64,000 nt of DNA from Halostella limicola (GTDB lineage Archaea > Halobacteriota > Halobacteria > Halobacteriales > Natronoarchaeaceae): contig NZ_RCDI01000002.1 in the NCBI RefSeq assembly GCF_003675875.1, positions 684,786-748,785 on the forward strand, written 5' to 3'. This document shows positions 3,199-7,330 of the stretch, piece by piece (position 1 is the first letter of the stretch; each line of letters starts with the position of its first letter). The notes beneath the pieces are model-generated. The model was not told the DNA's origin and made no database searches. It was given only the letters and a program-made list of their open reading frames with translations. The translations under genes were made by a program, and so were the position numbers.

Positions 3199-3392
3199 GA
3201 GCCACTCTCTCTTGATGTGGATTCGCTAACTTCCTGAATGTTTGGTACCAATTAACATCTCCTAATCGTCTGTCCGGGCCCTGAGACTGTAGAGAAGGAA
3301 TAGGGACGGCAAAATTGGAAGAGAACGTTCAGCGGTTTCTGTGTGCCTCGTGCTTGTGATGCTTCAGGTCGGGAGCGGTCGAGACAACCTTG

Positions 3393-3868
3393 CCCTTTCT
3401 GCGTCCGCCAGGACGGTAGATGGCTCGCCGAGCGACGCCGCCAGATGTTCAGATGCTACGGTACGGCTCGCCCCGCTCGCCGCTGCCGGCCGTCGCGGCA
3501 CTCGGCACCGACCGTTCCGGGCGGGCTTTCCGCTCCAGTGGGTGCGGGTCCTGCCAGCCGTCCGGTTTGCCGCCAGCGGGTCTCCCGTTTCGGTTCCGGA
3601 CTTCCGGAGGCTTCCGGAACGCGTCGCCCCGCGACGGACGTCGTTGCGTCGCGGGCGAAACGGGGACTCCGCTGGCCGTTTGCGACGGCCGGGTCGGCGC
3701 GCGGGGCTGGTCGTGTCCTCCCACACGGGCGCGCCGCTCGCGCCCTCCGGGCGCTCACGAAGGCGCGAGCGGCGCGCAGATGTGTCTATCGTCGATGGTA
3801 GTCTGAGAAACCGCGAGTGGAGTCGCGGTGTCGGCGCGGTGAGCGCCTTCGGAATCGGTGAGATTCCA
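3393..3868 (+). promoter_or_regulatory. long hairpin-rich leader of the OB-fold gene (candidate structured RNA)
   Basis: This very GC-rich stretch directly precedes the ATG at 3869. Perfect inverted repeats occur one after another: 3593-3599/3614-3620 (7 bp), 3628-3636/3647-3655 (9 bp), 3674-3679/3685-3690 (6 bp) and 3729-3744/3762-3777 (16 bp, 17-base loop). Then come three small hairpins: 3811-3816/3823-3828 (loop GTGGAG), 3833-3837/3843-3847 (loop GGTGA) and 3851-3856/3862-3867 (loop GGTGA). The last ends one base before the start codon. The reading frame running through it is open but has no family resemblance and biased composition, so I treat it as non-coding. Whether it acts as RNA or as DNA is inference. 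Confidence 0.5.
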
Positions 3869-4744
3869 ATGTCACGTAAGAACCTACGCGGTAATCAAGT
3901 TTCGGACGAGACGGATAGCGAACAGACGACGCTCGCGCTGTACGAGTCGGCGGTCGTCGACGAAGTGGCCGAACGAGAACAGAACCTCCAGCCGACGGTT
4001 GAGCAGGAGATCCAAGGGAAGGTCGACACGAACCACCCCGACGCGAAGACATCGGGACTCACGCTGGAAGCAGAGGAACGACTGGAAGCGCGCGAACGGG
4101 AGATACGGCGGACACGAGAGCGACGAGAGCGGAACATCGAACTGAATCGGGAAGCGCAGACCCGGCTCGTGGCGAGAGAAGGATGTATAGAGCGGCATCG
4201 AGAGTTCCGGAAGCGCGCGGCGAGCGTGACTCCGTGGGAAGACCCGGACCGAGGCGACCCGAGAGCGGAACTGTCTCAGGAGCAGTTGGGGACGGTGAAC
4301 AAGCAGGCTGTGCGGTTGGACGACGAACTCGACGGCTGGTCGCGGGCGGCGATCAGTCGGCGGTTGGCCGAGCGAGTCGCGGACGGCGCGGGCGTGCTGG
4401 GCGCGGTCGTCGGGACGAAAGAGGAACTTCAGGAAGCGCCGGGACAGGTGGTCCCGATTGGGAGGCTCGAAGACGTGAATCGACAATCAGTGAGCATCGA
4501 AGGTCGTGTCGAGACACTCTGGAATCCCTCGCATCCGAGCATCGCTCAGGTCGGCCTCGTCGCGGATGAGAGCGGGCAGACACGCGTGACGGTGTGGAAG
4601 CAATCGAGACAACCCTGGATGGAGGAAGGCGAACGCGTGCGCATCCACGGAGCGAGTAGAAACTGGTACGAGGGACGCGTCTCGGTAGCCGTCACTGGGT
4701 GGAGCACCGTCCTGTTCCCCGACCGCGGTCGGTGGTGGGAGTAG
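3869..4744 (+). CDS. plasmid-type DNA-binding protein with C-terminal OB-fold
   Basis: The 291-residue protein starts at the ATG one base after the last leader hairpin; a longer frame from 3341 reads through the hairpin array and is rejected. Roughly residues 60-120 are rich in Arg and Glu with a heptad-like pattern, suggesting a charged helix or coiled coil. The last 90 residues (from about the GRLEDVN segment to the end) have the alternating strand pattern of a nucleic-acid-binding OB-fold like those of RPA/SOSS-B-type proteins: GRVETLW, an aspartate-rich turn, TRVTVW and a GERVRIHGA strand. Similar proteins are common on haloarchaeal plasmids. The role in replication or repair is inferred from the fold alone. 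Confidence 0.7.
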   Translation: MSRKNLRGNQVSDETDSEQTTLALYESAVVDEVAEREQNLQPTVEQEIQGKVDTNHPDAKTSGLTLEAEERLEAREREIRRTRERRERNIELNREAQTRLVAREGCIERHREFRKRAASVTPWEDPDRGDPRAELSQEQLGTVNKQAVRLDDELDGWSRAAISRRLAERVADGAGVLGAVVGTKEELQEAPGQVVPIGRLEDVNRQSVSIEGRVETLWNPSHPSIAQVGLVADESGQTRVTVWKQSRQPWMEEGERVRIHGASRNWYEGRVSVAVTGWSTVLFPDRGRWWE

Positions 4745-4751
4745 GCGGCGA

Positions 4752-4775
4752 GAAGCAGTTCTTTTTTGTTGTGTG
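4752..4775 (+). terminator. T-rich terminator after the OB-fold gene
   Basis: A run of six T (4762-4767) lies about 18 bases after the stop codon. Archaeal RNA polymerase terminates at such T-tracts. Confidence 0.45.
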
Positions 4776-4902
4776 CCGGTCCGACCCGGTCCCCACCGCC
4801 CCGCCCTCCGCTCCGTGCTCGCTTCGCTGCGCGCGCAGCCACAACCTCAATGCTGTTTAGAGGTCTCAGCGAATCACTCCCGAGAGAATAGCCGGTGATT
4901 CA

Positions 4903-5329: not shown

Positions 5330-5890
5330 TTATTCAAGAAGGTCGAGATCAAATAAACGAGATTCAACCCTATCAAAAGCCACCTCTGCATCCTCAGGCC
5401 GGCTACCGCCCGTAATAACGATTTTCCCACTGCCAAACAGAAGCACCACAACATCCATCTCCTCTAGACGATACACTAACCCTGGAAATTGTTCAGGTTC
5501 ATACTCCACATGCTCCAGCCCGAGTCCAATCGCAATCGCATTAAGATTCAAACGGGAAGAAAGGTCAGCGCTCGAAACGATATTCTGGATCTCTACCTCT
5601 GGTTCAGCGGGGATCTCAAGCCCTAACCCTTGAAGCGTTTCAAATGTCAACGACACTGCTTCAGTCAAATCATCAATTGACTGTGCGCCAGTGCACACCA
5701 CTTTCCCTGACCGGAAAATCAAACAAGTCGCCTTCGGCTCCTCGATTCGGTAGATAACTCCTGGGAACTGACCGGGATCATAGCTGACTTCATCCAGGTC
5801 ATCTGCCAAGGTCTCTAAATCCAACTCCTGCTCAATACTACTGGATCCGACTACATTCTCGGTGGAGATAGTATCTTTCGGTGGAACCAT
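5330..5890 (-). CDS. tbp: TATA-binding protein (accessory TBP)
   Basis: The 186-residue protein is a general transcription factor that binds the TATA box and recruits TFB and RNA polymerase. It has the two imperfect repeats of the TBP saddle: about residues 8-92 and 98-180. Each carries the paired motifs FPG(V/L)(I/V)YR(I/L)EE and a following (I/L)(I/L)F(R/G)SGK(V/I)V(C/I)TG. The tail is acidic as usual in haloarchaea. Its codon use is more AT-rich than that of nearby genes. Haloarchaea often carry extra tbp copies on plasmids; here an extra tfb sits 5 kb away. The gene is alone on its strand. Confidence 0.93.
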   Translation of the reverse strand: MVPPKDTISTENVVGSSSIEQELDLETLADDLDEVSYDPGQFPGVIYRIEEPKATCLIFRSGKVVCTGAQSIDDLTEAVSLTFETLQGLGLEIPAEPEVEIQNIVSSADLSSRLNLNAIAIGLGLEHVEYEPEQFPGLVYRLEEMDVVVLLFGSGKIVITGGSRPEDAEVAFDRVESRLFDLDLLE

Positions 5891-6836: not shown

Positions 6837-6874
6837 GTGCCCCTGAGGGGTGCGGGGCACGCTTCGACGTGCCC
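6837..6874 (+). promoter_or_regulatory. AGGGG-loop leader motif, copy C, with a competing second hairpin
   Basis: GTGCCCC (6837-6843) pairs with GGGGCAC (6854-6860) around TGAGGGGTGC. The same right arm can instead pair downstream: GGGCACG (6855-6861) with CGTGCCC (6868-6874) across a six-base loop. The two 7-bp hairpins exclude each other. The run TTTTTT (6831-6836) precedes, and the SWIM gene starts at 6884, ten bases past the second hairpin. Confidence 0.6.
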
Positions 6875-6883
6875 TGCGGACCC

Positions 6884-7330
6884 ATGACTGTTCCACTAGC
6901 TCACTTAGACGTTACAACGCGCGTCGTGAAGCGCGCACAGTACGAGGCCTTCGAGTTCACCGTCGACGAACGCGGCGTCCGCGTCAGAAACGGGAGTCAC
7001 GCGAACCCCGACGAACACGAGTACCTCGTCACGGTCGACGAGGAGATCCCAAGCTCCTGCGAGTGTCCGGCGGACGAACACTACGACGGCGCCTGCAAGC
7101 ATCGCGTTGCCGTCGCGATTCGGGAACCGGTCCTCACGGCCGCGATTCACCAGCAGGTCGCCACAGATGGTGGCGCGACGGCAACGGATGATACGGCCGG
7201 GGAAAGCGACGAAACAACCGACGAAAAGCGATCAGGCGATGCTGCGAACTGTGACTGTGAGGAACTCGCCGGTGACTTCCCGTGCTGGGAGTGCGTCCGA
7301 ACTGGGCGACGTGAACTTCCTAACGCCTGA
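6884..7330 (+). CDS. SWIM zinc-finger protein
   Basis: A 148-residue protein with a SWIM-type zinc motif C-x-C-x9-C-x-H (C59, C61, C71, H73). SWIM domains bind DNA or proteins; stand-alone versions are frequent on haloarchaeal plasmids. After an acidic Thr/Asp-rich linker (about 95-120) a second cysteine group appears near the end (CDCEEL and CWEC), a possible second metal site. The ATG at 6884 was chosen because it follows the hairpin leader and a T-rich promoter-like stretch. Confidence 0.82.
   Translation: MTVPLAHLDVTTRVVKRAQYEAFEFTVDERGVRVRNGSHANPDEHEYLVTVDEEIPSSCECPADEHYDGACKHRVAVAIREPVLTAAIHQQVATDGGATATDDTAGESDETTDEKRSGDAANCDCEELAGDFPCWECVRTGRRELPNA

Follow-up and report, generated by a model that had tools for sequence, protein, structure and literature searches.

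HEARO-type RNAs combine a structured RNA with a mobile ORF, and their definition includes an HNH endonuclease ORF. OLE, GOLLD and ROOL are large noncoding RNAs of bacteria. Ribosomal-protein autoregulatory leaders are structured 5' leaders of genes for nucleic-acid-binding proteins, and non-autonomous IS200/IS605-like elements have terminal hairpins and lack a target-site duplication. The STAXI motif is described as a structured motif near the genes of single-stranded DNA-binding proteins, and its authors discuss a single-stranded DNA form as well (PMC2864571).

The hairpin-rich stretch in our window, which is the whole 64,000-nucleotide stretch of Halostella limicola DNA that was analysed, is one copy of a large, folded, hitherto unnamed element. 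Like HEARO-type RNAs, the element places a large structured RNA directly 5' of an ORF, is a compact cassette and has scattered copies; it differs in its cargo, an RPA-like OB-fold protein or a TFB paralogue with no HNH endonuclease in Pfam and fold searches, and has no Rfam match. With OLE, GOLLD and ROOL it shares a size of several hundred nucleotides, a complex fold, adjoining protein genes and a biochemical role that is not known. Those RNAs are bacterial, however, no sequence or covariance match to them was found here, and the haloarchaeal fold abuts a start codon behind which two ORFs alternate. The ribosomal-protein leaders likewise are structured and precede a gene for a nucleic-acid-binding protein, whereas here one leader is common to two unrelated cargo proteins. 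Compared by description, non-autonomous IS200/IS605-like elements are similar in their terminal hairpins and the absence of a target-site duplication, but the present element has no fixed left-end target and carries a host-type gene. STAXI also lies near genes for single-stranded DNA-binding proteins, but consists of tandem pseudoknots (PMC2864571), and the Rfam search showed no resemblance.

The first-pass annotation of this DNA had named no described haloarchaeal element with such a layout, and we found none in Rfam or the literature searched. Rfam 15 returned no family at the gathering threshold in the window, with matches at chance level under relaxed thresholds, and no family matching the window or nine relatives, which rules out a known Rfam RNA. 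A literature search, with subscription journals mostly outside its reach, returned no description of the layout or its genes.

The hairpin stretch is the 5' portion of a cassette of about 1.6 kb with sharp ends (GAAAGCCC ... CAGCCACRACC). A structured leader of about 500–650 nt is followed, one base past its last hairpin, by the ORF and then by a conserved 3' tail of about 100 nt (Table 1). The 5' half of the first hairpin, including GAAAGCCC, is not recognisable in the window copy by a regular-expression search. The inverted repeats listed in the first-pass annotation are all present, and its 16-bp stem is perfect. The last three small hairpins, with loops GTGGAG, GGTGA and GGTGA, lie where they had been placed, and the final stem does end at 3867, followed by A3868 and ATG 3869. 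The TTCCGGA repeats at 3594, 3602 and 3612 are likewise real, and sit with a hairpin at 3628–3655 in the exchangeable arm of the window copy, but they are not general: at least two copies occur in 3 of 124 loci (the window, L017 and L019). A single copy of the element was found in the window genome, and neither the window nor that genome gave a hit for the 5' hairpin motif as a stand-alone repeat.

Table 1. Features of the element copy in the window (positions are those of the window).
Feature	Position	Strand	Basis or remark
5'-terminal hairpin, 3' half, ending CCCTTTC	3337–3399	+	by-eye comparison with intact relatives
Conserved linker behind the first hairpin, TGCGTCCGCCAGGACGG (relatives: TGAGTCCRCCAGGA or AGTCCCRCC)	3400–3418	+	
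Core domain; outer strands 3464–3490 and about 3684–3712 around the variable arm	3464–3712	+	fold and conserved blocks in relatives
Exchangeable arm, closed by CCAGC (3573–3577) and GCTGG (3671–3675)	3573–3675	+	mutual fit of arm ends
Big hairpin, perfect 16 bp 3729–3744/3762–3777	3722–3784	+	aligned in 60 sequences
GAAGGCG, candidate long-range partner of 3844–3850	3759–3765	+	motif pair exact in 115/124 OB loci
Hairpin B, ACCGCGA-GTGGAG-TCGCGGT	3810–3829	+	
Local hairpin GGCGC-GGTGA-GCGCC	3833–3847	+	mutually exclusive with the CGCCTTC:GAAGGCG pairing
CGCCTTC	3844–3850	+	
Start-codon hairpin GGAATC-GGTGA-GATTCC	3851–3867	+	stem covaries, 111/124 loci
ORF, 291 aa	3869–4744	+	N-terminus disordered, long helix, helical region, C-terminal RPA/SSB-like OB fold
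ORF start under nucleotide-level constraint (codons 3, 11, 12; TTTCGG 3900–3905)	3869–3905	+	
Conserved 3' tail: T-run, C-rich stretch, terminal hairpin, last bases GCAGCCACAACC at 4846	4745–4846	+	

The 291-aa product matches the Pfam OB fold PF01336 at an E value of 4e-5, below the cut-off, and its best NCBIfam match, replication factor A (9.7e-15), is far below the cut-off. In the AlphaFold2 model (mean pLDDT 74.7), a disordered N-terminus is followed by a long helix at residues 66–117, further helices and a confident OB fold, and the solved structures that best match this fold include OB domains of archaeal SSB/RPA proteins. The motif QxKVDxNHP (window residues 49–57) is invariant in 22 aligned proteins (L001–L022), with pLDDT below 50 over most of it; invariance despite low pLDDT suggests a putative binding motif.

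A direct search returned 23 related loci. At E ≤ 1e-20 the OB protein is found in 226 of 391 haloarchaeal genomes and 68 of 86 genera (up to six matches per genome among those listed), and also in 186 plasmid records; copies are carried by pHME132 of Haloferax mediterranei and by pNRC200 and pHS2 of Halobacterium salinarum, both tractable hosts. We collected 136 loci, in 124 of which the ORF starts at CCA followed by ATG; these loci with in-frame CCAATG are the 124-locus set used throughout, and most of the other 12 have GCAATG or a similar variant. The OB proteins are only about 50–67% identical to that of the window, yet the upstream sequence is strikingly conserved. A covariance search from upstream regions of the OB loci had been suggested in the first-pass annotation. 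Model R1, built from the last ∼160 nt of the leader, matches 211 of the 391 haloarchaeal genomes (66 of 86 genera). In a wider sample of 246 genomes drawn from across the phylum, R1 matches 28, all of them from the order of the window or closer. Some haloarchaeal genomes hold several copies, and in more than half of the sampled haloarchaea the element lies directly 5' of a gene for a DNA-binding protein or transcription factor. Carriage by viruses was not confirmed for any of the viral contigs searched.

Several R1 matches run into a different gene, one of the TFIIB/TFB family (Pfam TFIIB, E 1.9e-8 and 3.2e-28). Members of this TFB subfamily are present in 36 of the 391 genomes and in 24 genera (E ≤ 1e-60). 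All 30 TFB loci that were fetched match R1, the weakest with an E value of 2.4e-13, and R1 was built without any of them. Where coordinates were compared (G238, G017, G270 and G320), the R1 match ends on the TFB ATG. The TFB leaders are 71–88% identical to their respective best OB leaders, five of nine across essentially the whole ∼600–700 nt, with an OB leader set that includes loci without a found 5' end (represented by a fixed 560 nt). Where ends were found, the TFB copies share both 5' and 3' ends with the OB copies. Among 60 plasmid matches listed, the overlapping ORF is annotated as a DNA-binding, OB or replication-factor protein, as hypothetical or, in two cases, as TFIIB-family, and some are unannotated. 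A further set of 30 loci, from 15 genomes, comprises 18 OB, 9 TFB and 3 with neither, a split that is not a frequency because the genomes were picked partly for lacking OB matches. Leader and tail also carry an unrelated TFB gene, so the OB-fold protein is not the only cargo and the leader is not specific to it.

The leader folds more stably than expected. The fold of 3390–3890 has a z-score of -4.9 against dinucleotide shuffles and that of 3560–3880 a z-score of -3.7, with none of 100 shuffles equally stable in either case. Conserved stems, without which the idea of a functional leader would have had to be given up, are present in the homologous loci. A start-codon hairpin of at least 4 bp is found in 111 of 124 loci, whereas shuffled sequences give about 24 of 124, and its pairing is kept across 25 distinct stem sequences. 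Several alternative versions of the CCAGC/GCTGG-closed arm are found among the loci, the two ends of each matching one another. At least three further contiguous pairs are present in 47 of 97 loci, compared with a mean of 23 and a maximum of 33 in 2000 permutations; 36 of 133 loci, which have no anchor motifs, were left out. Hairpin B varies on both sides, and the arms of the 5' hairpin differ yet stay complementary in L038, L103, L006 and L131, as judged by eye. Alignment A3 holds 38 of the sequences that remained once the 7 of 69 loci lacking a 3' anchor had been set aside. The hairpins are conserved and not a product of chance, and stems are kept through compensatory change, as in a cis-acting leader.

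GAAGGCG in the big hairpin and CGCCTTC, located 5' of the start-codon hairpin, are complementary, and both are exact in 115 of 124 loci. Their pairing is a candidate, and the near-invariance of both motifs gives no covariation to read. Alignment A2 consists of 60 sequences drawn from 116 loci that contain GAA[GA]GCG; the invariance of GAAGGCG in 60 of 60 is therefore partly a matter of selection, and we use the 115/124 figure instead. In some Haladaptatus copies the competing local hairpin is absent, and CGCCTTC is still kept. The GGTGA loop had been likened to a haloarchaeal ribosome-binding sequence. Only 19 of 124 loci have GGTGA in their final hairpin segment, and 66 have GTGA there; since the loop is not conserved, we do not retain it as a conserved ribosome-binding feature.

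Conservation at the nucleotide level continues beyond the start codon, to codons 3, 11 and 12. Across 122 aligned OB genes, AGT is used for 109 of 110 serine codons at position 3 and GTT for 114 of 114 valine codons at position 11. Third-base information at these codons is 1.93 and 2.0 bits, respectively, versus a mean of 0.76 and a maximum of 1.63 for the ORF body (82 conserved degenerate codons). A TTCGG at about +33 is common to the OB copies and most TFB copies shown; in the window, codon 3 is CGT and GTTTCGG is retained.

The GAAAGCCC pattern at the element start was found in 69 of 124 loci and the element end, GCAGCCACRACC, about 100 nt past the stop codon, in 83 of 124. Complete elements (n = 41) measure 1462–1916 bp, with a median of 1599. 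Neighbouring genes vary by locus, and the flanks are diverse, with 36 distinct sequences on the left and 63 on the right. T or C directly precedes the element in 94%, and neither a fixed target nor a target-site duplication is visible in the flanks. Comparison of the 181 pairs among the 41 complete elements that passed a k-mer filter identified pairs that are 92–95% identical over the whole element with both flanks unrelated (L095/L052, L062/L095 and L065/L088); other pairs share one flank. The same ends in unrelated flanks are what a mobile cassette would show, and near-identical cassettes in such flanks therefore suggest mobility of the cassette, recombination between copies, or both. No transposase was found in the cassette, and searches with joined flanks found no empty sites. 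In one search, the five records examined whose match reached the left-flank end, or nearly so, continue into the element or broken copies of it; in another, the best other match is a second occupied site.

The reading that we favor, with middling confidence, is a spreading cassette made of a structured leader, an exchangeable ORF (RPA-like OB or TFB) and a tail, in which leader and ORF would share a transcript and the leader would exert cargo-independent control through a strand-exchange switch. A leader of the mRNA is favored because the hairpin abuts the start codon and the constraint continues in frame. The body of the ORF, whether OB protein or TFB paralogue, would continue in frame from a short conserved start, and the leader, assumed to be cotranscribed, would control expression whichever protein follows. 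The most likely switch would be an exchange of CGCCUUC between the local hairpin (GGCGC-loop-GCGCC) and GAAGGCG in the big hairpin; the 5' strand of the big hairpin, once freed, could then pair with GGGCG in the loop of that hairpin. This exchange may alter how the AUG-adjacent hairpin is presented to the ribosome. Because the cassette has no recognisable recombinase, it would presumably spread in trans, by a putative transposition, or through recombination between copies. If this reading is correct, over half of all haloarchaeal species harbour a large structured element absent from the RNA databases searched, and a common leader links plasmid-borne paralogues of core information-processing proteins (RPA-like and TFB), which bears on how the expanded haloarchaeal TFB and RPA sets are regulated and spread. 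A bolder version, which we consider doubtful, is a new class of haloarchaeal mobile element whose moving unit would be the large structured RNA. It would fuse in frame to RPA-like or TFB ORFs, control them by the GAAGGCG/CGCCUUC exchange and perhaps promote its own spread as a ribonucleoprotein, with no known recombinase.

The strand and promoter analyses bear on whether the structure acts as RNA at all. On the + strand, G-U and A-C cells number 28 and 28 in the 3' domain, 9 and 13 in the start-codon hairpin, and 3 and 18 in two 5'-hairpin stems. The totals are 40 G-U versus 59 A-C cells, and the wobble excess of a cis-acting leader is not seen, so RNA of the + strand is not favored. By stem, hairpin B favors the + strand, and the 5' hairpin, inner and local stems favor the - strand. 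None of 69 loci has a TATA-like box within 60 nt 5' of the element start, and no conserved promoter motif was found inside the element. Function as RNA rather than DNA, and transcription of the leader, are thus assumptions. The hairpins might instead be single-stranded DNA structures, serving a mobile or recombining cassette as its ends and as recognition sites within it, with no regulatory RNA, an explanation that we judge somewhat unlikely. Along with the missing G-U excess and promoter, it draws on sharp ends that lie outside the transcription unit on both sides, on the diversity of the flanks and on the OB domain, whose closest relatives are the ssDNA-binding RPA/SSB proteins; the conserved tail beyond the T-run is also more easily explained at the DNA level. 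It does not account for a structure whose end coincides exactly with the start codon in 124 of the 136 loci or for in-frame constraint through codons 3–12, binding of ssDNA is not the known role of TFB, and neither a transposase nor a target duplication accompanies the cassette.

Cleavage of the RNA just 5' of the AUG could alternatively yield a leaderless mRNA and a free noncoding RNA of ∼640 nt, acting alone or with the encoded proteins. Leaderless initiation is common among haloarchaea, the hairpin stops one base 5' of the ATG in 111 of 124 loci, and a CCA 3' end precedes the ATG. The constraint, however, spans the supposed cut site into codons 3–12, and we regard cleavage as quite improbable. 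The first-pass annotation had suggested that the OB-fold protein itself perhaps binds the leader; in an autoregulatory scheme, the protein would thereby repress its own translation. Leader and OB gene are tightly linked and an RPA-like OB fold can bind nucleic acid, but the same leader precedes the unrelated TFB gene at 30 of 30 loci tested, including those of three genomes (G017, G037 and G134) in which no OB match reaches E ≤ 1e-20, which makes OB-specific autoregulation very unlikely, and we rejected it. Finally, GC-rich DNA readily gives hairpins, but functionless chance palindromes are contradicted by the shuffle z-scores, the covariation of start-codon hairpin and arm ends, and conservation across genera, and their probability is negligible.

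Several minor features of the loci were also recorded. The AT-containing motif GGGCTRAARTGNATNTG recurs just 5' of the variable arm (81 matches in 124 loci); it might be a loop or what is left of a promoter. In L043, L098, L105 and L110 the common 3' tail gives way to another type (GTCACCGCCACCTCCCACCACCTCCACGGTCCGGGCTGCTCACGG...CGGGCTTTCGC). Truncated or interrupted copies are located on pHS2, pHSR-Bgl01 and a Natrinema halophilum plasmid (L147, L148 and L149), where they adjoin a pair of HTH and hypothetical genes, and H163 carries an apparent remnant. A pair of HTH and DUF6036 nucleotidyltransferase genes recurs left of several copies (the left flank of L095; L245–L247), with an apparent degenerate remnant of the 5' hairpin at this site in L245. 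In the two loci compared, SWIM zinc-finger genes lie a few kb 3' of the element (window 6869–7327, + strand; pNRC200 locus L058, 6942–7763). A TATA-binding protein gene is located just past the 3' end of the element in the window (5330–5890, - strand), and TFIIB-family genes lie near OB copies on pHS2 and on plasmids of Halorussus limi and Halomarina. As these genes adjoin copies of the element, plasmid general transcription factors cluster with it.
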